A program made the translations under genes and the position numbers. From the NCBI GenBank assembly GCA_019873685.1, contig JAIOAT010000015.1, forward strand, positions 1 through 64,000: a stretch of DNA of 64,000 nucleotides, written 5' to 3'. Positions 14,917 through 28,480 of the stretch are shown here, piece after piece. This stretch comes from Chloroflexota bacterium (lineage in GTDB: Bacteria > Chloroflexota > Anaerolineae > Aggregatilineales > Ch27). How positions within the stretch are numbered: the stretch's first letter is position 1; the number at the start of each line of letters is the position of its first letter. The notes below the pieces were generated by a model. It did not search any database. It was not told the DNA's origin and saw nothing but the letters and a program-made list of their open reading frames with translations.

Positions 14917-15747
14917 CTAGCCCTTGATCGCGCCGGCTGTCAGCCCTTTGATGAACTGGCTGGACATCAGCAGGTAGGCTACCAGCACCGGCACAGCAGC
15001 CATCGACAGCGCGGCCAGCGCCCGCGTCCAGTCCGTCTGGTACTGGCCGAAGAGCAGCGACACGCCCAGCGTGACCGTCCGCGCTTCCTGATTGCGGATG
15101 AAGATCAGCGGGAACCACAGGTCGTTCCAGATCGGCAGCAGGTTGAAGATGGTCACCGTGGCCAGGGCGGGACGGATCAGCGGCAGAATCACCGAGAGGT
15201 ACACCCGCCACTCGCTGGCGCCATCGATGCGCGCCGCATCGCTCAGTTCGGCGGGCACTGAGCGGATGAAGCTGGTCAGGACAAACGTCGCGATCGGCAT
15301 CCCCATCGCCACATAGATCGGGATCAGCCCCAGCAGGTTGTCGGTCAGCCCCAGGCTCTGGATGATCTGGAACAGGTTGATCGTGCCCAGGCGGATCGGG
15401 ATCATCAGCCCGGCGATGAAGTAGATATACAGGATGTTGGACAGGCGGGAGCGCCAGTTAGCCAGGGCATACGCCGCCAGCGAACCAAGCAGCAGGATCA
15501 GCAGCAGAGAGACCACGCTGACGATGATACTGTTGCGGAAGTACAGGTCAAAGCGCCCGGCCGTCCAGGCATTGCTGTAGCCGTCCAGCGTGACCTCCGA
15601 GGGCAGACCAAACGGGTTGCGGAAGATCTCCCGCTTGGGCTTGATCGAGTTGATCAGCATCGTCCAGACCGGGATCAGCACGACCAGCGACCAGGCGAGC
15701 AGGACCAGATGGGTGACAATCATGCCGGGGGAAAAGCGTCGGGTCAT
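14917..15747 (-). CDS. Carbohydrate ABC transporter permease, MalG type
   Basis: 276 residues with six predicted membrane helices. The cytoplasmic EAA loop, where the ATPase docks, is visible as DGASEWRVYLSVILPLIRPA. The N-terminal helix and the long periplasmic loop after it are typical of CUT1-family sugar transporters. AGGAGG lies 8 bases before the ATG. It follows the MalF-type permease by 12 bases. No ATPase is encoded in the operon; a shared MsiK/UgpC-like subunit is the usual solution. Confidence 0.93.
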   Translation of the reverse strand: MTRRFSPGMIVTHLVLLAWSLVVLIPVWTMLINSIKPKREIFRNPFGLPSEVTLDGYSNAWTAGRFDLYFRNSIIVSVVSLLLILLLGSLAAYALANWRSRLSNILYIYFIAGLMIPIRLGTINLFQIIQSLGLTDNLLGLIPIYVAMGMPIATFVLTSFIRSVPAELSDAARIDGASEWRVYLSVILPLIRPALATVTIFNLLPIWNDLWFPLIFIRNQEARTVTLGVSLLFGQYQTDWTRALAALSMAAVPVLVAYLLMSSQFIKGLTAGAIKG

Positions 15748-15759
15748 CGTGCGTGCCTC

Positions 15760-16737
15760 CTAGCCCGCCAGGGTTTCTTCCCCGCCGCGGCCAAAGCGCA
15801 ACCACAGGCTCACACCGGTCAGCAGGATCAGAAAGGTGCAGGTCGCTACCGCCGCGCCGAGACCCATGTTCGGCTGGGCCACCGGATGCTCACCGGCGAT
15901 GGCCGTGCGGTAGAAGAAGGTCGCCAGCAGGTCGGTGGCGTAGGCTGGTTCGCCGCGCGCCCCGGCCATAGCGAAGATCACGTCAAAGGCGTTGAAGTTG
16001 CCGATGAAGGTCAGCACGGAAACAATGCCGATCGTTGGGCGGAGCAGCGGCAGCTTGATCCGCCAGAAGATCTGCCAGGCGCTCGCCCCGTCAACCCGCG
16101 CCGCCTCGCTCAGCTCGTCGGAGATGGTCAACAGCCCGGCCAGAAACATCATGGTGGGCAGGCCCACCCACTGCCAGGAGGACACCAGCGAGATCGTCGG
16201 CAGGGCCAGATTCGCGTCGCCCAGCCAGGGCCGGGCCAGCGCCCCCAGCCCGATCCATTCCAGCACCTGGTTGAGCATCCCCCAGCGCGGGTTGAGGATC
16301 AGCGTCCACAGGAAGCCGGTCACCAGAACGGACATGGTCGCCGGGGTGAAGATGATCGCCCGGTAGACGTTGCGACCGAACAGGCGCGTGTTGCTCAGCA
16401 ATGTGGCAAAGAGCAGGCCCAGCGTATTCTGAACCAGCATGTGAATGGCGAAGAAGACAAATGTATTGCCGACAGCGTTAAAGAAACGATCGCGCCACAG
16501 CGGGTTAGTGAACAGGGTGACATAGTTTTCCAGGCCGACGTAACGGTCAGGCGTCAGGCCCTGGCCCTGGTAAAAGCTCAGCCGCATCGAGTTGAACAGC
16601 GGGAAGGCCATGAAGATTGTGTAGATGAGCAGAGCCGGGATCAGGAAGAGCACCCAGGTGCGTCGTCGCTGGACATCCCAGCGCGTGATCTCGACCTGTT
16701 CGCTGGCCCGCGCCGGCGCAAGGACTGAGTTGGCCAT
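15760..16737 (-). CDS. Carbohydrate ABC transporter permease, MalF type
   Basis: 325 residues with six main helices starting near residue 30, where the LFLIPALLIYTIFMAFPLFNS helix begins. The EAA loop reads DGASAWQIFWRIKLPLLRPT. It forms the heterodimeric channel with the MalG-type partner encoded next. AGGAG lies 6 bases before the ATG. A strong hairpin separates it from the binding-protein gene. Confidence 0.93.
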   Translation of the reverse strand: MANSVLAPARASEQVEITRWDVQRRRTWVLFLIPALLIYTIFMAFPLFNSMRLSFYQGQGLTPDRYVGLENYVTLFTNPLWRDRFFNAVGNTFVFFAIHMLVQNTLGLLFATLLSNTRLFGRNVYRAIIFTPATMSVLVTGFLWTLILNPRWGMLNQVLEWIGLGALARPWLGDANLALPTISLVSSWQWVGLPTMMFLAGLLTISDELSEAARVDGASAWQIFWRIKLPLLRPTIGIVSVLTFIGNFNAFDVIFAMAGARGEPAYATDLLATFFYRTAIAGEHPVAQPNMGLGAAVATCTFLILLTGVSLWLRFGRGGEETLAG

Positions 16738-16777
16738 AGGCGGCTCCTGTCGCTAGCTGGCGGTACCCAGAACAAAT

Positions 16778-16801
16778 GGGGGCGATCGCTGGATCGCCCC
16801 C
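16778..16801 (-). terminator. Hairpin between binding-protein and permease genes
   Basis: A perfect 10-bp stem (GGGGGCGATC with GATCGCCCCC, 4-base loop) lies just after the binding-protein stop. The trailing T-run on the minus strand is weak, so partial termination or mRNA stabilisation is more likely than a full stop. This would raise binding-protein levels above the permeases. Confidence 0.6.
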
Positions 16802-16825
16802 AGTGTAACACGCTAAGCCATGAAA

Positions 16826-18109
16826 CTACATCCCGGCAGGGCACTTCTGGGCCGGTTCAAACCACTGAGCCAGACCCTCCTGCAACGCGTCGGCGGCTTC
16901 CTGCGGGGTCATCGTGCCAGCGATCACCGCCAGCGCGCCGTTCTGCATCAGCGTATAGCCGTCAGGCTGGCCGTCCAGCAGCTTCTCCCACGCCCAGCGG
17001 ACATCCAGTCCAGCACCCTCGTTGAGGGCCAGGAAAGCGTTGGCATGCGGGTTGCTCAGCTCGATCGGATGATTGGAGATCGGGAAGAAACCGGGCAGTG
17101 TGTCGCCCATCAGGGTAGCGAACTCCGGCGTGGTCATCCACTCCAGGAAGAGCTTGGCGGCTTCCTTGTGGTCGTCGGGCGCGGCGGCGTTGAGGCCCAT
17201 GCCTGCGTCCATGTGGAAGGTCACATAGCGCTGTTCCTGGCCCTCCGGGGCGGGGATGCCAAAGACGCTCCATTCGAAGTCCGGCGCCTCGCTCTCAAAG
17301 AAGGGGATATCCCAGGAGCCGCCCAGCCACATGGCCGCTTCGCCCATCAGGAAGAGTTGCTGGCTGTCGTAGTAGGTCAACGCTTCCTGGCCTTCCGGCA
17401 GGAAGGGCGCCAGGTCAGCCACTGCCTGGAAGACGGCGACGGCGTGCTCATCGTTGAAGCAACGCTCGCCGTTCAGGTAGGCCTGACGGCCCTCATAACC
17501 GCCGATGAAGGTCGGGGCGATGTTCATGAACACGATCTCGGCGATCGTCCACTCGTCGCCGCTGGCATTGGCGAAGGGATCATAGCCGGCGTCCTTGATC
17601 TTCTGAGCAACGGCCAGCAGTTCTTCCCAGGTCTGGGGAACTTCCAGGCCCAGTTCGTTGAACAGATCGATGTTGTAGTAGACACCGTGCGACACCGCGA
17701 TGAAAGGCACCCCGTAAGGCAGGCCGTCGTCAGTCGCCCAGGGGGCGCGCGCGGCCTCGGTGAAGTTCTCCATCAAACCGGGCAGGTCGCCCAGCGGCTC
17801 CAGGTAACCTTCCTCAAAGAGCTGGCGGGAGGTGGCATAGGAGCGCAGGTAGAACAGGTCGGGGGCTGTGCCTCCCTCAAGCTGGGTCCGCAGCGTGGCG
17901 TTGTAGTCGGGCGGGTTGGTCGGGTCAAAGGTGATGGTGATATTGGGGTAAGCGGCATGGAAGGCGTCCAGGATCACCTGCATCTGGGCGACATCATCGA
18001 CGCGCCACGATCCCATCGTCAGGGCGATCTCGCCGCCCTGTGCGCTGACCGACGGGATCAGGCCCAGCAGCATAGCAATAACCAGCAGAAGGGTCAGTCT
18101 GAGTTTCAC
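16826..18109 (-). CDS. Extracellular sugar-binding protein of ABC transporter
   Basis: 427 residues from a GTG with AGGAG 8 bases upstream. A signal peptide (about residues 1-23, ending SVSAQG) exports it; no lipobox cysteine is visible. The body is a family-1 solute-binding protein: VILDAFHAAYPNITITF and, later, YNIDLFNELGLEVPQTWEELL plus AAMWLGGSWDIP are typical of oligosaccharide-, glycerol-phosphate- or polyol-binding members. It is the first gene of the operon with the two permeases and the zinc methyltransferase. The ligand cannot be deduced. Confidence 0.92.
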   Translation of the reverse strand: MKLRLTLLLVIAMLLGLIPSVSAQGGEIALTMGSWRVDDVAQMQVILDAFHAAYPNITITFDPTNPPDYNATLRTQLEGGTAPDLFYLRSYATSRQLFEEGYLEPLGDLPGLMENFTEAARAPWATDDGLPYGVPFIAVSHGVYYNIDLFNELGLEVPQTWEELLAVAQKIKDAGYDPFANASGDEWTIAEIVFMNIAPTFIGGYEGRQAYLNGERCFNDEHAVAVFQAVADLAPFLPEGQEALTYYDSQQLFLMGEAAMWLGGSWDIPFFESEAPDFEWSVFGIPAPEGQEQRYVTFHMDAGMGLNAAAPDDHKEAAKLFLEWMTTPEFATLMGDTLPGFFPISNHPIELSNPHANAFLALNEGAGLDVRWAWEKLLDGQPDGYTLMQNGALAVIAGTMTPQEAADALQEGLAQWFEPAQKCPAGM

Positions 18110-18429: not shown

Positions 18430-18687
18430 TCAGTCGCGGCGGCTGATGCTGACCTTGAGCAGGTCCAGCAGGTGAGCGATGACGATTAACAGGGCCAGTT
18501 GCGGCACCACCAGGCCAATCACCAGCGCAACCAGACCCGGCAGGCTGACGACGGTGGAACCGTCCTGGCGGCGCAGGGTGACCTGGTAAGCGTTGATGTC
18601 TTCCAGCAACAGCTGCAGGCGCTTGCCCAGGTCCTGCGTGGAGAACTCGAACGTCTCTCGGCGTTTCTGCTTGCGATCTTCCGACAC
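18430..18687 (-). CDS. Small DUF4342-like membrane protein
   Basis: 85 residues. The N-terminal half (FEFSTQDLGKRLQLLLED) reads like an amphipathic helix followed by a strand pair (YQVTLRRQDGSTVVSLP); the C-terminal half is one long hydrophobic segment (about 50-75). This order matches the DUF4342 family, whose function is unknown. The match is from memory. It has its own terminator and is divergent from the membrane protein at 18832. Confidence 0.7.
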   Translation of the reverse strand: MSEDRKQKRRETFEFSTQDLGKRLQLLLEDINAYQVTLRRQDGSTVVSLPGLVALVIGLVVPQLALLIVIAHLLDLLKVSISRRD

Positions 18688-18831
18688 GGCTGTTTCCCCC
18701 TTGGCGATCCGCTAATTTCTATCGGATTATACGCGCTAACCCGGCTCCGGGTTGCAGCATCCTTGCCGATTCAGGCAGCGCCAGTACAATCGGCGCGGAG
18801 ATGGCCAGCCAGAGACAGGGATAAGATAGCT

Positions 18832-20868
18832 GTGCAGCAGAACGATCGAAAATGGCTCATGCAGTTAGCGGGGCCGCTGGCGCTGATAATCGCGCTGGGG
18901 CTGCTGGTTCTGGCGCTCGCGCCGGGCAGCGCCAGCCTGACCGCCGACGACGAAGGGGCGCAGGTCCACCTGAGCGCCGACCGACGCTGGACGATCCTGC
19001 CCGGCGGTTGCGTCACGGTCAGCTGGGCGGTCTCAGGCGTGCGCGAGGTTTACCTCGACGGGGAGGGCGTGACCGGCGAAGGGTCCCGCCTCATGTGCAC
19101 CGCCGAGGAGGGCGAGGCCATCGTTCCCATCCTACGGGTCGTCACCTCCAGCGGCGCAGAACGCTTCTATGCCCTGCATATCCCGGCGCTGACCGGGCGC
19201 GGCGAATTCTGGCTGGCGCTGATGGCGGTCGGGCTGCTGGCAGCGGTGTATACCCGGCGGCGCAGACTGATCAGCAGTGCATTGCTGCTGGCGGCGGCGG
19301 GGATCGGCGTCTGGCTGCTCTGGCAGTTCATCAACCCCGCACCGCTGGTGATCCGGACAGCCGAACGCGGCGGTTTCGTCTCCTTCCGCGCGACGCCGAT
19401 CCGCCCGCCCGACGATTGCACAACGCTGGCCTGGACGGTAGAGGGCATCCAGCAGGTGCGGCTCAACGGGGAGGCCGTGATCGGTCAGGGGGAAAAACGT
19501 CTGTGCGGGCCAGCCGTCCACGACCTGCGCCTGACGGTGACCTTCCGCGATGGCAGCCAGCGCGACTATCGCTTTCCGCCCAACCGGCTGCTGTATCCGG
19601 CGGGCCTGCTGGCGCTGTGTGGCGCGGTGCTGCTGGTGGCGCTGGTGGCTGATGTCTGGCGCGGGGCGCGAGTCCGGCTGGCGCTTCGCCTGAGCCGTTA
19701 CGATGCAGTGGGGCTGATCGGCGCAGTTGGGGTGACGGCGCTGATCTACGGCTACCTGCTCAGCCAGGCGGTGCAGACCACTGATGATTATTGGGTGCAT
19801 CTGAACTTTGCGGCGATCCTGCAGGAAAGTGGGACAACGCCACTGCCGCACTTCCTGTTCCAGGCGCTGGTAGCGGCTCTCGGCAGAATCATCCCGGGCG
19901 GCAATCTCACTGTTGCGGGTGTAATCGTTGGCGCAGCAGCTTACGCCAGCATCACCGCGCTCACTTATATCCTGCTGAGGCAGGCGCTAGGCCAGACAGA
20001 GGGGTGGCCGCAGGCGGGTCTGCTCGCCGGGCTGGCACTGGCCGTCTGCGTGATGGATGTGGCGAGCCTGCCCGTACCAGGCTACGACAACCACAGCTAC
20101 CGTCTGGCATACGTTTCCCTGCAGCCACTGCACAATCCGACCTATCCGCTGATGCGGCCGCTTGCGTTGCTGCAGTTCATTGTGGCACTGCGCGTGCTAT
20201 CCGATCGAAGAGAAACGGCTGCTGTCTGGCCAGCGGTGGTGGTCTCAGTCTTGAGCACTTGGGCCAAGCCAAACTATGCAATTGTCCTCCTGCCAGCGCT
20301 TGCGCTACTAGCGGCTGCTCGCTGGTTGCGCGGGAAGTGGATAGATTGGGGATTGCTGCTGGGCGGGCTGATCTTGCCGATGGTAGCCGTTCTGGGCTGG
20401 CAGTTCTACTTCAACCATGGCTCCGGCCAGGCGGGGAGCAGTTTCACTTTTGAGCCATTCGCCGTGTTTCGCCTGTTTGCCCCGCATCCCTGGGCGCTAT
20501 GGCTGGTCATGTTCACCCTGTGTTCAGCGTTGTTCCCGCTGGTGGTAACCGTGCTATACAGAACACAGGCCACCTGCGACGGTGGGTTAACGCTTGGCTG
20601 GCTGGGCTTTGCCATCGCCATGGCTTACTACCTGCTCTTCGCGGAACAAGGCGCGCCTTCCGCTGCAAACTTCCGCTGGGGCGCGCAGATCGCCCTGTTC
20701 ATCCTCTGCGTTGCCTCGCTGGTGTTCTTCATTCAGCGAATACGCGAAGCCGGGTGGAACAGACGCTCCCGCATCGGCGCAGCACTGTTCGCCTGGCATG
20801 TCCTCAGCGGCGTCTACGCTTACGCCGCTTACCTGGCCTGGGTCTGGAGCTGGATTCGCCCGACCTGA
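18832..20868 (+). CDS. Large polytopic membrane protein with two Ig-like extracytoplasmic domains
   Basis: 678 residues from a GTG at 18832; the ATG at 18859 is an alternative, and any earlier start would run through the DUF4342-like gene. Two repeats, each a membrane helix plus a domain with the pattern C-x-T-x-x-W-x-V-x-G-[VI]-x-x-V-x-L-x-G (around residues 57-75 and 198-216), are followed by about ten helices with loops bearing VQTTDDYWVHLNFA and LSTWAKPNYAI. The second half resembles glycosyltransferase-C-like integral enzymes in layout, but I see no decisive motif. Function unknown. GC drops somewhat after about 20150. Confidence 0.75.
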   Translation: MQQNDRKWLMQLAGPLALIIALGLLVLALAPGSASLTADDEGAQVHLSADRRWTILPGGCVTVSWAVSGVREVYLDGEGVTGEGSRLMCTAEEGEAIVPILRVVTSSGAERFYALHIPALTGRGEFWLALMAVGLLAAVYTRRRRLISSALLLAAAGIGVWLLWQFINPAPLVIRTAERGGFVSFRATPIRPPDDCTTLAWTVEGIQQVRLNGEAVIGQGEKRLCGPAVHDLRLTVTFRDGSQRDYRFPPNRLLYPAGLLALCGAVLLVALVADVWRGARVRLALRLSRYDAVGLIGAVGVTALIYGYLLSQAVQTTDDYWVHLNFAAILQESGTTPLPHFLFQALVAALGRIIPGGNLTVAGVIVGAAAYASITALTYILLRQALGQTEGWPQAGLLAGLALAVCVMDVASLPVPGYDNHSYRLAYVSLQPLHNPTYPLMRPLALLQFIVALRVLSDRRETAAVWPAVVVSVLSTWAKPNYAIVLLPALALLAAARWLRGKWIDWGLLLGGLILPMVAVLGWQFYFNHGSGQAGSSFTFEPFAVFRLFAPHPWALWLVMFTLCSALFPLVVTVLYRTQATCDGGLTLGWLGFAIAMAYYLLFAEQGAPSAANFRWGAQIALFILCVASLVFFIQRIREAGWNRRSRIGAALFAWHVLSGVYAYAAYLAWVWSWIRPT

Positions 20869-20922
20869 GAGATGCAGGGGCGCAGCATGCTGCGCCTCTA
20901 CCCCCTCCCCTCGCTTCACTGC

Positions 20923-20952
20923 TTGACATCGCCTGCCGGACCATGCCATACT
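20923..20952 (+). promoter_or_regulatory. Promoter of the fadR operon
   Basis: A perfect -35 TTGACA, 18 bases, then CATACT (4 of 6). The predicted start falls at about 20959, the first base of the FadR-like palindrome. Confidence 0.7.
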
Positions 20953-20958
20953 GAGATC

Positions 20959-20982
20959 AACTGGTCAGACCACTGACCAGTT
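20959..20982 (+). promoter_or_regulatory. fadR operator: FadR-type operator palindrome
   Basis: A perfect inverted repeat, AACTGGTCAG-N4-CTGACCAGTT, with an inner palindrome TGGTC-A-GACCA. The left half plus the inner part closely matches the known E. coli FadR site, AACTGGTCnGACCnGTT. The overlapping halves could hold two dimers. Its position from about +1 to +24 of the fadR transcript fits repression by roadblock, that is, autoregulation of the whole operon. Confidence 0.8.
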
Positions 20983-21005
20983 ACTGGCCATGAAGCGAGG
21001 TGAAC

Positions 21006-21749
21006 ATGCCCTGGTCCCCGCCCAAGCGCCCGGTTGACCATGTCGAAGAGGCTTTGATCTCGGCTATCCTCAACGGCGACTTCCCGCCCGGCAGCGCCTT
21101 GCCCGCCGAGCGCGAACTGGCCGTCCTGCTGGGGGTCACCCGCCCCACCCTGCGCGAAGTCCTTCGCCGCCTGGAACGCGATGGCTGGATCACCATCCAG
21201 CAGGGTAAGCCAACGCTGGTCAATGCCTTCTGGTGGGAAGGCGGCCTGAATGTGATCAGCGGTATCGTGCGTTACAGCCGCACCCTGCCGGACGATTTCG
21301 TCAGCAACCTGCTGCAGGTGCGGCTTGACCTGGCGCCTTCCTACACCCGCCTGGCGGTGATCCACAATGCACCCGGCGTAGCGGCGCTGCTGGCGGAGGC
21401 CGCTAGCCTGCCGGAAGCGCCTCCAGCTTTCGCCGCCTATGACTGGCGCCTGCAGCACAGCCTGACCATTGCTTCCCGCAATCCTGTCTACGCCATGATT
21501 CTGAATGGCTTCGCCGGTTTCTATGAAAGTCTGGCCCGCCACTACTTCACCACAGCGGAGGCCCGGAGCGTTTCCCGCGCCTACTACGCGGCGCTCCTGG
21601 AAGCCGCCCGCGCTGGCGACGCCCCCCGCGCTGAGACGGTCACCCGCGAGGTGATGACCCGCAGTATTGCCCTGTGGGCGCAGGCACAGCAGACCCTGAT
21701 CCATCAGGCTGACGGGGAAGGATGGCGGTGGAAGGAGGAACAACCATGA
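21006..21749 (+). CDS. fadR: FadR-family acyl-CoA-responsive regulator
   Basis: 247 residues from the ATG at 21006 (GAGG 5 bases upstream); a GTG two codons earlier is possible. E. coli FadR is 239 residues. The N-terminal winged helix (about residues 9-75) has FPPGSALPAERELAVLLGVT and TLREVLRRLERDGW, and the linker GKPTLVNAFWW matches the GKPTkVNnFW of true FadR rather than generic GntR proteins. The helical C-terminal domain keeps NPVYAMILNGFAGFYESLAR and HYFTTAEARS. FadR represses fatty-acid degradation genes and is released by long-chain acyl-CoA. It is the first gene of an operon with lipid-glycerol genes and has a matching operator. Confidence 0.88.
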   Translation: MPWSPPKRPVDHVEEALISAILNGDFPPGSALPAERELAVLLGVTRPTLREVLRRLERDGWITIQQGKPTLVNAFWWEGGLNVISGIVRYSRTLPDDFVSNLLQVRLDLAPSYTRLAVIHNAPGVAALLAEAASLPEAPPAFAAYDWRLQHSLTIASRNPVYAMILNGFAGFYESLARHYFTTAEARSVSRAYYAALLEAARAGDAPRAETVTREVMTRSIALWAQAQQTLIHQADGEGWRWKEEQP

Positions 21750-23338
21750 GGCGCTGGAATGGCTGGGGCGACGACACCCAGGACTATCCCCTGCCGGAAG
21801 GGGCGGCCCGCTTCCTGGAGGAGGCGCTGGGGTCGGGGACGCCGCCGGTTGATGCGGCGCTGGAAGACGTGCTGGCCACGGTCCCATCCTCGCGCCTGCT
21901 GCCGCATCCGCTGATCGTCACCGATGCCGAGACGCGCCTGCGCCATGCCCGCGGTCAGAGCTTCCCGGACTGGGTGGCGCTGCGCAGCGGGCGGGCCGGG
22001 CCGCTGCCGGACGGCGTGGCCTTCCCCACAACAGGCGAGGAGGTGCGCGACCTGCTGCGCTATGCGCGTGAAACCGGGGCGCGGGTGATCCCCTACGGCG
22101 GTGGGACAAGCGTTGTCGGCCACATCAACCCGCCGGGCGGTAATGCGCCGGTGCTGACCCTCAGCCTGGCGCGGATGAACCGCCTGGAAAGCCTGGAGGA
22201 GGCCAGCGGCCTGGCCCGTTTCGGCGCGGGCGTCACCGGCCCTGACCTGGAGGCGCAACTCCGCGCCCGCGGCTTCACCCTCGGCCACTACCCGCAGTCA
22301 TTCGAGTTCTCCACTCTGGGCGGCTGGATTGCCACACGCTCCACCGGCCAGCAGTCGCTCGGCTACGGGCGGATCGAGCGGCTGTTTTCCGGCGGCGTGG
22401 TGGAAACGCCGACCGGCACGTTGATCCTGCCGGACTTCCCGGCGTCGGCGGCGGGGCCGGATCTGCGCGAGATCGTGCTGGGATCGGAAGGGCGGCTGGG
22501 CGTGATCACACAGGCTAGCGTGCGCGCGTCCCGTCTGCCACAGGTCGAAGCGTTTCACGGCGTCTTCCTGCCGGATTGGGAACGCGGGCGGGAAGCCGTG
22601 CGCGCCATCGCCGGGGCCGGGCTGCCGCTCTCTATGCTGCGTCTGAGCACACCGGGAGAGACGGTTACTACCCTGGCTCTGGCCGGGCATGATCGCCTGA
22701 TCGGGGCGCTGGAGCGCATGCTGGCGCTGCGCGGAGTCAAAGATGAGAAGTGCATGTTGATCATCGGCGTCACCGGACGGGAAAAGGTCGCCAGGGCCGC
22801 GCTGAGGGAGACGCTGGGCCTGTGTAAAGAGCATGGCGGCGTCCATGTCGGCCAGACGTTCGGCAAACAGTGGCACAAATCGCGCTTCCGCACACCGTAC
22901 CTGCGCAATACGCTCTGGGAACGCGGCTATGGCGTCGATACACTGGAAACAGCCGCACCCTGGGAGCGCGTCCCGGCGCTGGTGGCGGCAATCGAGAACG
23001 CACTGCGCTCAGCGCTGGCCGACATAGATGAGCGGGTGCATGTCTTCACCCACCTTTCACATGTCTACCCGCACGGCTCCAGCGTCTACACCACGTACAT
23101 CTTCCGTCTGGCCGCCGACCCGGAGGAAAACCTGCATCGCTGGCGGACGCTCAAAGGCCGGGCGAGCGAGGCGATCGTGGCCGGCGGCGGCACAATCAGC
23201 CACCAGCACGGCGTTGGCGTCGATCATGCGCCCTATCTGGCAGCGGAAAAAGGGGCGCTGGGCCTGGAGGCGATCCGGGCACTCTGCGCCTGCTTCGACC
23301 CGGACGGCCTGCTCAATCCGGGCAAGCTGGTGGAATGA
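21746..23338 (+). CDS. Alkyldihydroxyacetonephosphate synthase-like FAD protein
   Basis: 530 residues from the ATG at 21746, which overlaps the fadR stop by 4 bases (ATGA) and has AGGAGG 7 bases upstream. AGPS swaps the acyl chain of acyl-DHAP for a fatty alcohol, forming the ether bond of ether lipids. Seen: RWNGWGD at the N-terminus, HPLIVTDAETRLRHARGQSF, the FAD-binding PYGGGTSVVGH, FSTLGGWIATRSTGQQS, and C-terminal SHQHGVGVDHAPYL and DPDGLLNPGKL. The histidine triplet of eukaryotic AGPS reads HQH here. D-lactate or glycolate oxidase-like activity is the alternative, but the N-terminal motifs are AGPS-specific. Confidence 0.85.
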   Translation: MRRWNGWGDDTQDYPLPEGAARFLEEALGSGTPPVDAALEDVLATVPSSRLLPHPLIVTDAETRLRHARGQSFPDWVALRSGRAGPLPDGVAFPTTGEEVRDLLRYARETGARVIPYGGGTSVVGHINPPGGNAPVLTLSLARMNRLESLEEASGLARFGAGVTGPDLEAQLRARGFTLGHYPQSFEFSTLGGWIATRSTGQQSLGYGRIERLFSGGVVETPTGTLILPDFPASAAGPDLREIVLGSEGRLGVITQASVRASRLPQVEAFHGVFLPDWERGREAVRAIAGAGLPLSMLRLSTPGETVTTLALAGHDRLIGALERMLALRGVKDEKCMLIIGVTGREKVARAALRETLGLCKEHGGVHVGQTFGKQWHKSRFRTPYLRNTLWERGYGVDTLETAAPWERVPALVAAIENALRSALADIDERVHVFTHLSHVYPHGSSVYTTYIFRLAADPEENLHRWRTLKGRASEAIVAGGGTISHQHGVGVDHAPYLAAEKGALGLEAIRALCACFDPDGLLNPGKLVE

Positions 23339-23376: not shown

Positions 23377-25122
23377 GTGATGATCTGGGGCAAAGACTGG
23401 CGCGATAGCGTCTGGGAGCAACTTGGAACAGAGCGGGACATCATCGTCATCGGCGGCGGGATCACCGGTGCAGGCATCCTGCGGGAGGCGGCCCGGGCAG
23501 GGCTGCGCGTCCTGCTGGTGGAAGCGCGGGACTTCGCCTGGGGGACAAGCAGCCGCTCATCCAAACTGGTGCATGGCGGGTTGCGTTACCTGGCCCAGGG
23601 CAAGCTGCGCCTGACGCTGGAATCCGTACGCGAACGCGAGCACCTGCTGGAGGACGGCCCCGGCCTGATCGACCCGCTGGGCTTCCTGCTGGCGACACAC
23701 AAAGGCGACCGTCCCGGTCGCTGGACGTACAAGGCCGGCCTCTCCCTTTACGACTTGATGGCGCTGCAGTGGACTCACCGCCGCTACCGCCCGGAAGACT
23801 TCCGGATGCTGGCCCCGCGCATCACGCCTGACCGGCTGGAGGGCGGCTTCCGCTATGGCGACGCCCAGACGGATGACGCCCGGCTGGTGCTGCGTCTGAT
23901 CCGGGAGGCCGTGGCTGACGGCGGCCTGGCGATCAACTACGTAGCAGCGATCGGCCTGATCCGCGAGGATGGCGCGGTAAGGGGCGTCCGCCTGCGGGAT
24001 GCGGTCACGGGCCGCGAAGCCGAGGCCCGCGCCCGCGTCGTGATCAACGCCACCGGCGCCTGGGCCGATCACCTGCGGGCACAGGTCGGCGGCGAGGCGC
24101 GAATCCGGCCCCTGCGCGGCAGCCATCTCATCATCCCCGCCTGGCGGTTGCCGCTGGCCCAGGCCGTCAGCTTCCTGCATCCCATCGATCACCGCCCGGT
24201 CTTTCTGTTCCCCTGGGAGGGGGCAACGCTGGTCGGTACAACCGACCTCGACCATGACGCCCCCCTGGATGAGGAACCGCGCATCAGCCCGGAAGAAGTC
24301 GCCTACCTGATGGCCGCCATCCAGCACCAGTTCCCTGCCTGTAACATCACCCTGGACGACGTGATCGCCACCTTTGCCGGCGTGCGTCCGGTGATCGGGA
24401 CGGGCAAGGACGACCCATCCAAAGAATCACGCGAGCATGTCGTCTGGCAGGAAGATGGCCTGCTGACCGTCACCGGCGGTAAGCTGACCACCTTCCGCCT
24501 GATCGCCCTGGATGCGCTGCGAGCCGTACGCGATCGCCTGCCGGAACTGGCCGACCTCAGCGCCGATCACCCTGTGCTGGCGGCGATCGACGTAGACCTG
24601 CCTGGCGCGGAGAATCTGCCACCGGCAACCCGGCGGCGGTTGCTGGGGCGCTACGGCGCGGACGCTCCGGCCCTGGCGGCAGCGGCGGAGCCAGGCGAAT
24701 TGGAGCCAATCCCCGGCACGCGCACCCTGTGGGCGGAATTGCGCTGGGCGGCGCGGGCAGAAGGTGTGGTTCACCTGGACGACCTGCTGCTGCGTCGTGT
24801 GCGGCTCGGCCTGCTCCTGCCGGAAGGCGGGGTTGGGCAGATGGCCCGCATCCGCGCCATCTGCCAGCCAGAACTGGGCTGGGATGACGCCCGCTGGGAG
24901 TCCGAGGAGGCCGCCTACCGGGCGCTATGGCGGGCTGCTTACAGCCTGCCGGAGCGCGCCCTGATCCCGGACTGGCAGACGCTGCTGCTGGACGCACGCG
25001 CGGCGCGGCTGGCCCGCCCTTATAGCTTCCGGCGGCCGCTGTTCCTGCTGGCCGGGCTAACGGCGCTGGCGCTGTTGTCGCGGTGGCGCCGTCGTGTGGG
25101 CCGGGATAGCGCGGTAGTATAG
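23377..25122 (+). CDS. glpD: Glycerol-3-phosphate dehydrogenase (FAD), GlpD-like, with C-terminal membrane helix
   Basis: 581 residues from a GTG with AAGGGG 8 bases upstream (the next codon is ATG). GlpD oxidises glycerol 3-phosphate to DHAP and gives electrons to quinone. Seen: IVIGGGITGAG (FAD Rossmann), SSRSSKLVHGGLRYL, VINATGAWAD, FLFPWEGATLVGTTD, VTGGKLTTFR and a C-terminal DUF-like cap. A hydrophobic helix at about 553-570 followed by RWRRR is an unusual tail that could anchor the enzyme. DHAP is the AGPS precursor, which ties it to the gene before. Confidence 0.92.
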   Translation: MMIWGKDWRDSVWEQLGTERDIIVIGGGITGAGILREAARAGLRVLLVEARDFAWGTSSRSSKLVHGGLRYLAQGKLRLTLESVREREHLLEDGPGLIDPLGFLLATHKGDRPGRWTYKAGLSLYDLMALQWTHRRYRPEDFRMLAPRITPDRLEGGFRYGDAQTDDARLVLRLIREAVADGGLAINYVAAIGLIREDGAVRGVRLRDAVTGREAEARARVVINATGAWADHLRAQVGGEARIRPLRGSHLIIPAWRLPLAQAVSFLHPIDHRPVFLFPWEGATLVGTTDLDHDAPLDEEPRISPEEVAYLMAAIQHQFPACNITLDDVIATFAGVRPVIGTGKDDPSKESREHVVWQEDGLLTVTGGKLTTFRLIALDALRAVRDRLPELADLSADHPVLAAIDVDLPGAENLPPATRRRLLGRYGADAPALAAAAEPGELEPIPGTRTLWAELRWAARAEGVVHLDDLLLRRVRLGLLLPEGGVGQMARIRAICQPELGWDDARWESEEAAYRALWRAAYSLPERALIPDWQTLLLDARAARLARPYSFRRPLFLLAGLTALALLSRWRRRVGRDSAVV

Positions 25123-25179: not shown

Positions 25180-26754
25180 ATGGCGGGTGAAGTGCTCCTG
25201 GCGATTGACAACGGTACGCAGAGCGTACGCGCGCTGCTCTTTGATCTGGAGGGGCGGTTGCTGGGCAAAGCCCGCGTGCCCATCAAGCCTTATGTCGCGC
25301 CGCAGCCCGGCTGGGCGGAGCAGGACCCGGAGTACTTCTGGCAGGCGCTATGCCAGGCCACGCGCCAGTTATTCGCCGAGACTGCCATTCGGCCTGAAGC
25401 CGTGGCGGGGGTAACCCTGACCACCCAGCGCTCGACGCTGATCAACGTGGACCGGGCCGGTAAGCCCCTGCGCCCGGCCATCGTCTGGCTGGATCAGCGC
25501 CGCACGGAGGGTCTACCGCCGGTTGGCGGGCTATGGGGCCTGGCCTTCCGGCTGGTGGGCATGTCGGATACAGTCGCTTACCTGCAGGCTGAGGCCGAGG
25601 CTAACTGGATCAGGACACAGCAACCGGAAGTCTGGGCCGCGACACACAAATACCTGTTCCTTTCCGGCTACCTGACTTACCGCCTGACCGGGCGGTTTGT
25701 CGATTCGGTTGGCTGCCAGGTCGGCTACGTTCCCTTTGATTACAAGCGCCTGACCTGGGCGCGCAGCTGGGACTGGAAATGGCAGGCCGTGCCGCTGGAC
25801 CCGGCTATCCTGCCTGACCTGGTTCCCCCGGCGGGCGTGCTGGGCCAGATCACGGCGGAAGCGGCGGCGGCCACCGGCCTGCCGGAGGGATTGCCCCTGA
25901 TTGCAGCGGCGGCAGACAAAGCCTGCGAGGTGATCGGCTCCGGCTGCCTGGAACCGCACATCGGTTGCCTGAGCTATGGCACGACAGCCACGATCAACAC
26001 CACCCACCGCCGCTATATCGAGGTCATCCCCCTCATCCCGCCGTATCCTTCCGCTGTGCCGGGCCGCTATAGCCTGGAGATCCAGATCTATCGCGGCTAC
26101 TGGATGGTCAGCTGGTTCAAAGAGGAATTCGGCCTGCGGGAGATTCTGCTGGCGGAGGAGCAGGGCGTCGAACCGGAAACTTTCTTTGATGATCTGGTGC
26201 GGGCCGCGCCGCCGGGATCACAGGGGCTGGTCCTGCAACCGTTCTGGTCGCCCGGCCTGCGCGTGCCGGGGCCGGAGGCGCGCGGGGCAATTATTGGCTT
26301 CAACGCTGCCCATACCCGCGCCCATGTTTACCGGGCCATCCTGGAAGGGTTGGCTTATGCCCTGCGCGAGGGCAAGGAGCGCACGGAACGGCGCAGCGGC
26401 GTCGCTGTGACCGAGTTGCGCGTCTCCGGCGGCGGTTCACAGAGCGACGCCGCCATGCAGCTCACCGCCGATGTCTTTGGCCTGCCGACCGCCCGCCCGC
26501 ATACTTATGAAACTTCCGGACTGGGCGCGGCTATCGACGCGGCGGTCGGGCTGGGCCTGCACCCGGATTTTGAGACGGCCGTCCGGGCCATGACACGCAA
26601 GGGCCGCGTCTTTGAGCCAGACGCGGCCACGCACACCATCTACAACGAATTGTACGAACGTGTCTACCGCCCGCTGTACGGACGGCTGCGCCCGCTGTAC
26701 GAGGCATTACAGACCATGGCCGCACTCCACAACGGGCGCAGCCCGGCGGTCTAG
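25180..26754 (+). CDS. FGGY-family kinase, glycerol- or polyol-type
   Basis: 524 residues, ATG with GAGG 6 bases upstream. The N-terminal ASKHA phosphate loop [39 protein letters not shown] and AIVWLDQR are FGGY features; the C-terminal domain has [12 protein letters not shown] and [16 protein letters not shown]. In glycerol kinase the corresponding sites differ, so the substrate may be glycerol, dihydroxyacetone or another polyol. Its place behind GlpD suggests it feeds glycerol 3-phosphate into the operon. A weak -10 (TATAGT at 25118) could give it additional expression. Confidence 0.87.
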
Positions 26755-26770: not shown

Positions 26771-28372
26771 TCAGTGCAGGTTGCTGTACACCTCCTGCAC
26801 TTCAGCTGCGTCCAGCGCACCGCTGTACAGCTGCACGTTCCTGATTACGCCGGAGAACGCGCCGGTTCGCTTGCCGCCCTGGCGCAGCGCACCAAGGATG
26901 GTATTGCCTCGCGCTGACCATGGCGCCCAGTCCTCAAGGGCAACCGTTGCCTGTGGCTGGCCGTCCACATACAGCGTCGCCTGCTTGGTCTGCCCGTCCC
27001 ACACACCCACCAGATGCACCCACTGATCCGCCGCCGGGACGAGCGGCGCAGCCGCGCTGATCGACATATTGCCGAACGGCGCAAACAGCGTGAAGGAGAA
27101 CCCTTCGCCGGTATATTCCAGGACGAAGTTGCTGGAGATGCCGCCATCCTGGCTGAGGATCGGCGCAGGCGTGGCGGGATCAGCCACACGCACCTCCGCC
27201 GCAACACTGAAGCTGCCCAGCGTGTCGAGCCAGCTCATGCCAGTGTCGATGAAACTTTGCTGCAGCTCAAATACACCCTCAGGCGGCGCTTCCAGCGAGG
27301 CGGCCAGGATATCCCCGTCCGCGGCGACCAGCCCGCACAGCTCACCGGCAGGCAGCGGGATCGTCGCCCCGGCAGGCACCGGACGCCCGAAGTTCGGCGT
27401 GCCATCCTCGTTCCAGGTGAAAGGCTGGGCGAAGATCGCCCGATCCTCCCAGCCGTCGCCCGGCTTGGTCTTGGCGTGGTAGAACAGCCAGCTTTCGCTG
27501 CCATCCGGGGAAAGCACGGGCGTCGAATTATGCCCCGGCCCGTAGACGTTGCCGCTTTCATCGGAGTAACCGCTGAAGACCGGCCCGACCTTCGTCCAGG
27601 AAGCCGCGTCCAGCGGATCGTCCCCGGTGAGCACCAGCATGCCCAGCTTGTAGGCCCGTGACCAGCTGGCGTCCGCCGAATAGACGATCGACAGCGTGCC
27701 GTTGTGGATGAACGCCTCCGGCCCTTCCTGGATGGCAGCAACCGACCGCTCCCAGGGCTGATCCGGCTCGGAAATCAGACGGCGCGGCCCGCTGATCGTC
27801 AGCGGATCGCTCATCGGCGCGATGTAGAGATTCTGCGGGAAGTCTCCTTCATCGCCGGGCCAGCCCGACCACACCATGTACAGCTGCCCTTCATACTCAA
27901 AGACCGTGCCATCGATCGCCCATTTGTCGGTCGTAGGGTCGTAGACTTTACCTTTCATCGTCCAGGAACCCTGCGGATCGGCGGTATCGGCCTGCAGGAC
28001 GTACATGCGGTGGGTGTAGTTGGCGCCCGGTCGCTCGGTAGCCGCCACGTAGATGTACCATCCGCCATCCAGGTAGACCAGCTCCGGCGCCCACAGGTCG
28101 TAGCTGTAGGGTTGCCCGCGCGGCGGGGTGTAAATGAACACGGGTTCCGCCGTCGCCAGGCCGGTCAGCGTGGGCGACTTGGCGATGGAAAGACCGCTGG
28201 CGCTCGACTGCACCAGGTAGTAGTAGCCGTCATGCTGCGCCACAGAGGGGTCCTGGCCCGCGCTGATCAGGGGATTGGTGAAGACACAGGTGATCGCTGC
28301 GTGGGAGGGAGTCGCTGGCAGCAGCAAGCCCAGACCGCACAGAAGCAGGAATACAGGCAGATAAGGTTTCAT
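26771..28372 (-). CDS. Secreted GH43-like glycosidase with C-terminal LamG domain
   Basis: 533 residues from the ATG at 28372 (an earlier in-frame GTG adds eight residues). A signal peptide ends near SHAAI. The five-bladed propeller of GH43 is marked by its three acids: Asp in SAGQDPSV, Asp in WAIDGTVFEYEG and Glu in QEGPEAFIHNG. These enzymes cut arabinan, xylan or galactan side chains. The C-terminal 150 residues form a LamG/concanavalin-like domain (WVHLVGVWDGQTKQATLYVDG) that probably binds polysaccharide. It converges with the FGGY gene and is transcribed alone. Confidence 0.88.
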   Translation of the reverse strand: MKPYLPVFLLLCGLGLLLPATPSHAAITCVFTNPLISAGQDPSVAQHDGYYYLVQSSASGLSIAKSPTLTGLATAEPVFIYTPPRGQPYSYDLWAPELVYLDGGWYIYVAATERPGANYTHRMYVLQADTADPQGSWTMKGKVYDPTTDKWAIDGTVFEYEGQLYMVWSGWPGDEGDFPQNLYIAPMSDPLTISGPRRLISEPDQPWERSVAAIQEGPEAFIHNGTLSIVYSADASWSRAYKLGMLVLTGDDPLDAASWTKVGPVFSGYSDESGNVYGPGHNSTPVLSPDGSESWLFYHAKTKPGDGWEDRAIFAQPFTWNEDGTPNFGRPVPAGATIPLPAGELCGLVAADGDILAASLEAPPEGVFELQQSFIDTGMSWLDTLGSFSVAAEVRVADPATPAPILSQDGGISSNFVLEYTGEGFSFTLFAPFGNMSISAAAPLVPAADQWVHLVGVWDGQTKQATLYVDGQPQATVALEDWAPWSARGNTILGALRQGGKRTGAFSGVIRNVQLYSGALDAAEVQEVYSNLH

Positions 28373-28480
28373 AGCCTTCAGAGCCTCTTTCCTCACAGCA
28401 GATCGCGCATGATCATTCTACTGCGATTATGGCAAAACCGGGGCGCGGCCCCTGCATGCCACGCCCCGCTGGCGACCATC

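Follow-up and report, generated by a model that had tools for sequence, protein, structure and literature searches.

A FadR-family regulator and a conserved three-half-site operator at a predicted glycerolipid operon of Chloroflexota

Introduction

The closest described counterparts of the regulator analysed here are the FadR proteins of E. coli and Vibrio (PRK04984, TIGR02812), of which the E. coli protein is released from DNA by long-chain acyl-CoA (PMC5733061). For the GntR family, Suvorova et al. 2015 (PMC4494728) described additional, weaker half-sites 7–12 nt from the palindrome centre, and the same study counts 6 Chloroflexi regulators of the FadR subfamily, which it leaves unnamed.

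The genes that follow the regulator have their own described counterparts. In P. aeruginosa, PA3026–PA3024 encode a FAD oxidoreductase, a GlpD homologue and an FGGY kinase, for which the authors propose a route from glycerol to alkylglycerone phosphate and whose deletion gave no phenotype (PMC8151288). The alkyl-DHAP synthases (AGPS) of Dictyostelium and mammals are represented by the structures 2uuu and 4bby.

Here we analyse the window, a stretch of 64,000 nucleotides from a Chloroflexota bacterium (contig JAIOAT010000015.1, positions 1 to 64,000). We hold, with moderate confidence, that it encodes a FadR-family autorepressor dedicated to a fadR – AGPS-like – GlpD-like – FGGY operon and relieved by long-chain acyl-CoA. 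The regulator family is known; the target operon and the operator layout are what is new as far as the literature was searched, which held no report of either, and an earlier prediction may stand in the supplements of PMC4494728 or in databases. Literature searches on FadR and ether lipids, and on alkylglycerol catabolism and glycerol kinase, returned nothing relevant.

Results

The window carries at 21006–21749 (+ strand) a gene, fadR, for a GntR/FadR-family regulator of 247 aa, assigned on domain, equivalog, fold and tree evidence; the stretches GKPTLVNAFWW and NPVYAMILNG are both encoded within it. Its FadR_C (PF07840, 134.5 bits) and GntR (PF00392, 74.3 bits) domains score above their cut-offs and reproduce the domain architecture of E. 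coli and Vibrio FadR. The broad curated FadR equivalog NF003444 (PRK04984) is passed (219.3 against a cut-off of 189), whereas the gamma-specific TIGR02812 (fadR_gamma) is failed (210.3 against 249.2), which sets the protein apart from the E. coli and Vibrio regulators. The closest sequence of solved structure is E. coli FadR (E = 1e-50), and an AlphaFold2 model (pLDDT 88.8) also finds its best fold match in E. coli FadR, including the myristoyl-CoA-bound form 1h9g (TM 0.79/0.87), with NanR and other family members well behind. These results, together with a FadR_C tree in which the protein groups with FadR and not with non-FadR GntR families, agree with the preliminary description, which had placed it beyond the generic GntR level; on all these measures we assign it to the true FadR family.

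Using the list of E. coli FadR DNA contacts given in PMC4494728, we found E34, R35, T44, R45, T47, R49, G66, K67 and T69 retained in the window protein, the base-contacting R35, T44 and R45 among them, and two positions changed, T46 to P and H65 to Q. Among 88 relatives, E34, R35, T44, R45, T47, R49, E50, G66 and T69 are kept almost without exception, position 46 is proline and position 65 is H or Q. We also asked whether residue 65 (H/Q) varies together with operator position 14 (A/T) and rejected the link: the raw Fisher test gave p = 5e-4, and the median p was 1 in phylogenetically independent pairs.

Upstream of fadR lie a -35 box TTGACA (20923–20928, + strand) and a -10 box CATACT (20947–20952, + strand) with an 18-nt spacer, both at positions relative to the operator that are conserved in relatives. 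From this placement, transcription should begin close to base 1 of a predicted 24-bp FadR operator, AACTGGTCAGACCACTGACCAGTT, at 20959–20982. An inverted repeat at the predicted transcription start had been the central claim of the preliminary description, and it is found exactly as claimed: it is perfect, of the form AACTGGTCAG-ACCA-CTGACCAGTT, and unique: allowing up to 3 mismatches, no other match exists in the window, and 100 shuffles give an expectation of 0. The likeness to the E. coli site that was claimed with it holds as well, since 15 of the 17 letters of the core AACTGGTCAGACCACTG (20959–20975, + strand) agree with the E. coli consensus AACTGGTCNGACCNGTT, N being counted as a match. 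The centre of this core, TGGTCAGACCA at 20962–20972 (+ strand), holds the exact TGGTCNGACCA core that the window shares with the operators of E. coli and Vibrio FadR.

Unlike the E. coli and Vibrio operators, the window operator has a third, strong half-site, ACCAGTT (20976–20982, − strand), which makes one forward (TGGT) and two reverse (ACCW, ACCA) half-sites in all. Its distance from the palindrome centre, about 10 nt, falls in the range reported for additional GntR-family boxes; those boxes are weaker, whereas this half-site is conserved as strongly as the core, and it is the most unusual point of the system. A mirrored second core would require TGGTC, where ACCAC is present instead. Judged by its letters, the operator combines a single E. 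coli-like core with one additional half-site and does not hold two tandem cores; it could accommodate a dimer joined by one more subunit, or binding in either of two registers. The preliminary description had taken the tandem overlapping halves to mean two dimers; the third half-site is conserved, the second full core is absent, and two dimers are not established. Occupancy by two full FadR dimers, rather than by one dimer with an extra subunit or an alternative outer-arm register, would suit the nearly perfect palindromy of the outer arms, the conservation of both ACCA-type half-sites and the additional half-sites known near GntR-family sites (PMC4494728), yet the inner half-site TGGTC that a second dimer would need is ACCWC in 71/71 aligned sites, and we consider this arrangement rather unlikely.

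A second strong inverted repeat (AGGGGCGCAGCA/TGCTGCGCCTCT) is found at 20876–20899, between an upstream membrane-protein ORF (18499–20868) and fadR; it is possibly the terminator of the upstream gene.

We then scanned the regions upstream of 88 non-redundant, non-gammaproteobacterial FadR genes with the pattern AACTGGTNNGACCNCTTACCAGTT at a threshold of at least 15/21. In the first scan 71 of the 88 reached it, and 77 did once sites overlapping the annotated start were counted, so that AACTGGTMWGACCWCTTACCAGTT stands just upstream of or over the start in 77/88 genes and the view of the palindrome as a conserved site is borne out. When these regions are shuffled by a first-order Markov model, 29 of 8,800 trials reach 15, and none of 17 gammaproteobacterial FadR upstream regions reaches 15/21 for the extended pattern. 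The operator-bearing FadR genes span Chloroflexota, Acidobacteriota and Desulfobacterota, usually with a single site per genome, at fadR; one of the eleven misses, from Syntrophaceae, holds a perfect site about 250 bp upstream.

Across the 71 aligned sites, positions 6, 7, 10–13, 15, 19 and 20 are invariant and the E. coli-like core faces the promoter in 65; the third half-site reads ACC in 73 of the 77 sites and ACCA in 69. The position within the predicted 5' leader would also suit a conserved palindrome of another kind, a leader RNA hairpin or the site of a different regulator, but the conservation of centre and arms extends to the single letter, compensating changes are not evident, the core equals the known FadR site, and the site is absent from the FadR-less genomes searched, which makes this the least probable of the readings considered here.

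The promoter is conserved along with the operator. A TTGACA-N17-TATAAT promoter precedes the operators of most relatives, matches of at least 10/12 occurring in 56% of upstream regions versus 0.9% of shuffles, and the commonest position of the -10 hexamer, counted from the operator, is -12 to -7, the box ending 7 bp before the operator; a median of 17 nt separates the end of the operator from the start codon. This geometry points to steric repression of initiation and to autoregulation. FadR might instead activate the operon, as E. coli FadR does fabA and fabB (PMC5733061), but in most relatives the operator follows a near-consensus -10 box and covers roughly +1 to +24, a steric-block position, and activation is very unlikely.

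Two further observations concern sites in other loci. In L017, L022, L144, L151, L157 and L166 there is overlap between the 24-bp operator and the start codon annotated for fadR, which suggests mis-called starts or very short leaders. In a distant FadR_C-like group from genomes of the Desulfobacterota phylum (L229, L230, L231, L235 and L237), the upstream regions contain sequences such as CTGGTAATACCACCAGCCA or TTGGTCGGACCACCGGACCAAT, which also resemble TGGT-N3-ACCA with a third CCA half-site, and a GlpD-like gene follows L230 and L238; the three-half-site layout may be older than the FadR clade of the window.

The extent of the regulon was assessed by scanning 34 genomes for the extended site, allowing up to 3 mismatches and using a reversed-pattern control. 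The extended site occurs at fadR in 20 of 26 FadR-bearing genomes and in 0 of 8 FadR-less genomes, and the reversed pattern gives 4 background matches in the 34 genomes. The extended site also matched twice outside the fadR loci, at G361:C83 and as a second match in G372; because the reversed pattern yields a similar background, both were set aside as chance. The shorter core occurs at 11 places in the window's genome; those examined other than fadR lie mostly inside ORFs, none was recognised ahead of a fatty-acid gene, and an E. coli-like fad regulon was rejected there for want of a convincing site outside fadR. In two gammaproteobacterial genomes the same pattern gives matches ahead of genes judged by eye from their ORFs to be fadL-like and plsB-like, so it could have found a classical regulon.

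Family membership and the E. coli-like core site would also be expected of a global regulator that, as in E. coli, governs the breakdown and synthesis of fatty acids and stands beside the glycerol genes by chance. Against this, the extended site is found once, at fadR, the other core-like matches behave as described, and the pattern does reach fadL-like and plsB-like genes in two gammaproteobacterial genomes; a global role here is very unlikely. We thus read the locus as a predicted local, autoregulated glycerolipid operon. Nothing found points to a fad regulon of the E. coli type, which distinguishes the locus from the E. coli and Vibrio systems.

In the gammaproteobacteria themselves, an extended-pattern match stands ahead of a fadL-like gene in a tandem array in Ferrimonas marina (G554, L267), with the third half-site partly retained, and another ahead of a plsB-like gene in Pseudoalteromonas luteoviolacea (G1097, L266); both fit classical FadR targets.

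The genes downstream of fadR had no place in the preliminary description. The first, at 21746–23338 (+ strand), shares an ATGA overlap with fadR and encodes a 530-aa AGPS-like FAD flavoprotein, a conserved neighbour. For AGPS we take R419, Y578 and H615–H617, in guinea-pig numbering, to be the active-site residues. Among solved structures of FAD_binding_4/FAD-oxidase_C proteins its best match is 2uuu (E 2.3e-71), the next enzyme type following at 9.4e-24. It shares with the Dictyostelium and mammalian enzymes, its best solved relatives, the WNGWG motif (here N-terminal), and differs from them in its bacterial operon context. At the active-site positions the agreement is partial: R, Y, H and H align with R419, Y578, H615 and H617, and H616 is Q in the window subtype; its AGPS activity is a prediction.

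The second gene (23377–25122, + strand) encodes a GlpD-like FAD glycerol-3-phosphate dehydrogenase/oxidase, in which the DAO and DAO_C domains pass, the best PDB match is 3da1 (E 4e-74) and the GlpD equivalog PRK12266 scores 297.6, below its cut-off of 360. The third (25180–26754, + strand) is an FGGY-family kinase that falls between glycerol kinase and xylulokinase; both curated cut-offs are missed (XylB, 259.4 below 380.25; GlpK, 164.5 below 590.35). By enzyme type, the set and its order are those of P. aeruginosa PA3026–PA3024 (PMC8151288); there, however, the regulator is GliR (PA3027), a divergently transcribed activator of AraC type, and no FadR is present. The content of the operon suggests glycerolipid metabolism.

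On the − strand, a sugar-type ABC transporter, weakly UgpB/A/E-like, lies upstream at 14917–18109 and a GH43 protein downstream at 26771–28396; neither looks part of the conserved core.

The AGPS-like/GlpD-like/FGGY set adjoins FadR in 17 of 20 fetched regions, and in nearly all non-gammaproteobacterial loci of the wider comparison and in close relatives. Many Anaerolineaceae have the order FadR–GlpD–AGPS–FGGY and a second AGPS subtype with the full HHH motif. Within the window's order, FadR occurs in 16 and the AGPS-like protein in 17 of 154 genomes, with both in 12 (Fisher 4e-11, uncorrected for relatedness).

In three genomes of the same order, all from family f96 (L247, L251 and L252; G537, G542 and G541), AGPS-like genes 62–66% identical were seen with no FadR found in the genomes, which indicates that the enzymes can exist without FadR. 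In two genomes of family f97, also of this order (G548, L097:1823-4613; G545, L098:11250-13662), the FadR relatives adjoin a B12-binding radical SAM gene (HpnJ/BchE-like) and not AGPS or GlpD, and upstream they have two separate 17-bp palindromes in place of the 24-bp site.

Relief by long-chain acyl-CoA is suggested by membership of the FadR family, and acyl-CoA as the ligand by the partly conserved pocket. We compared a set of residues taken to belong to the acyl-CoA region: in the relatives R105, Y172, Y179, Y193, S219 and W223 are largely retained and R213 is present in 63/88, whereas V mostly replaces Y215 and M replaces G216. The same local autorepressor could instead respond to a metabolite of the operon (glycerol-3-phosphate, DHAP or an (alk)acyl-glycerol phosphate). 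One-operon regulators of the superfamily usually sense a substrate of their pathway (PMC4494728), Y215 and G216 of the E. coli pocket are V and M here, and the downstream enzymes would handle glycerol phosphates. The specific FadR_C homology, the retained R105, Y172, Y179, Y193, S219 and W223 and the best fit of the model to ligand-bound E. coli FadR argue against a metabolite effector, and we regard it as a lesser, though real, possibility.

Regarding distribution, of 400 Chloroflexota genomes sampled, 32 have a FadR_C score above the cut-off; matches at E <= 1e-15 were found in 8/199 Acidobacteriota and 14/198 genomes of the Desulfobacterota phylum, the latter including the distant group. 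Carriers include Longilinea arvoryzae, Thermanaerothrix daxensis and Desulfatibacillum as well as many Anaerolineae and Acidobacteriota, and the earlier impression that a FadR would be unexpected in Chloroflexota does not stand. The loci are largely MAGs, and some phylum labels ('Bacillota', 'Actinomycetota' MAG) may be binning errors.

In a tree built by a quick search, with many weak forks, the FadRs of Gammaproteobacteria group together with support 100, their clade set on a long stem and the window protein outside it. Constraining all non-gammaproteobacterial FadRs to one clade was not rejected and improved the likelihood (p-AU 0.916). Recent transfer from Gammaproteobacteria was therefore ruled out: their clade stands apart, and the remainder can form one clade.

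Discussion

In the acyl-CoA-relieved autorepressor that we favour, a FadR dimer would sit on the 24-bp operator over the transcription start and block initiation. Long-chain fatty acids, taken up or released, would be activated to acyl-CoA, which would enter the FadR_C pocket and take FadR off the DNA, allowing the glycerolipid enzymes to be made. The FGGY kinase would convert glycerol (or alkylglycerol) to a G3P-type phosphate, GlpD would oxidise this to a DHAP-type ketone and AGPS would exchange acyl and alkyl groups on DHAP; the pathway may run towards ether-lipid synthesis or serve alkylglycerol salvage. Counting against this model are G216M, which separates the window protein from E. coli and Vibrio FadR as T46P and H65Q do, the mostly V at Y215, the P at T46 and the H or Q at position 65 in the relatives, and the FadRs that lack the site or control other genes, as in the two f97 genomes with the B12 radical SAM gene.

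More tentatively, and with considerable doubt, the locus could represent a cross-phylum, acyl-CoA-sensing switch on a bacterial glyceryl-ether-lipid module in which alkyl-DHAP is made or salvaged. Its three-half-site operator would then be read by an assembly, either a dimer joined by one more subunit or one that switches register, which is not known from the E. coli protein. The global FadR of Gammaproteobacteria would be sister to a local operon regulator of this sort or would descend from one.

The 77 operators and their cognate regulators form a clean natural data set for asking how a three-half-site operator is read by FadR. The setting in which this family is known would also widen, from a global gammaproteobacterial regulator to a predicted local operon repressor. 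The AGPS-like/GlpD-like/FGGY set is an orphan, for which a dedicated FadR-type sensor in several phyla is a clue to a fatty-acid response, and the FadR link offers a testable entry to bacterial ether-glycerolipid metabolism. That this operon carries a nearly invariant switch in three or more phyla suggests that these poorly understood ether-lipid-type enzymes answer to fatty acids.
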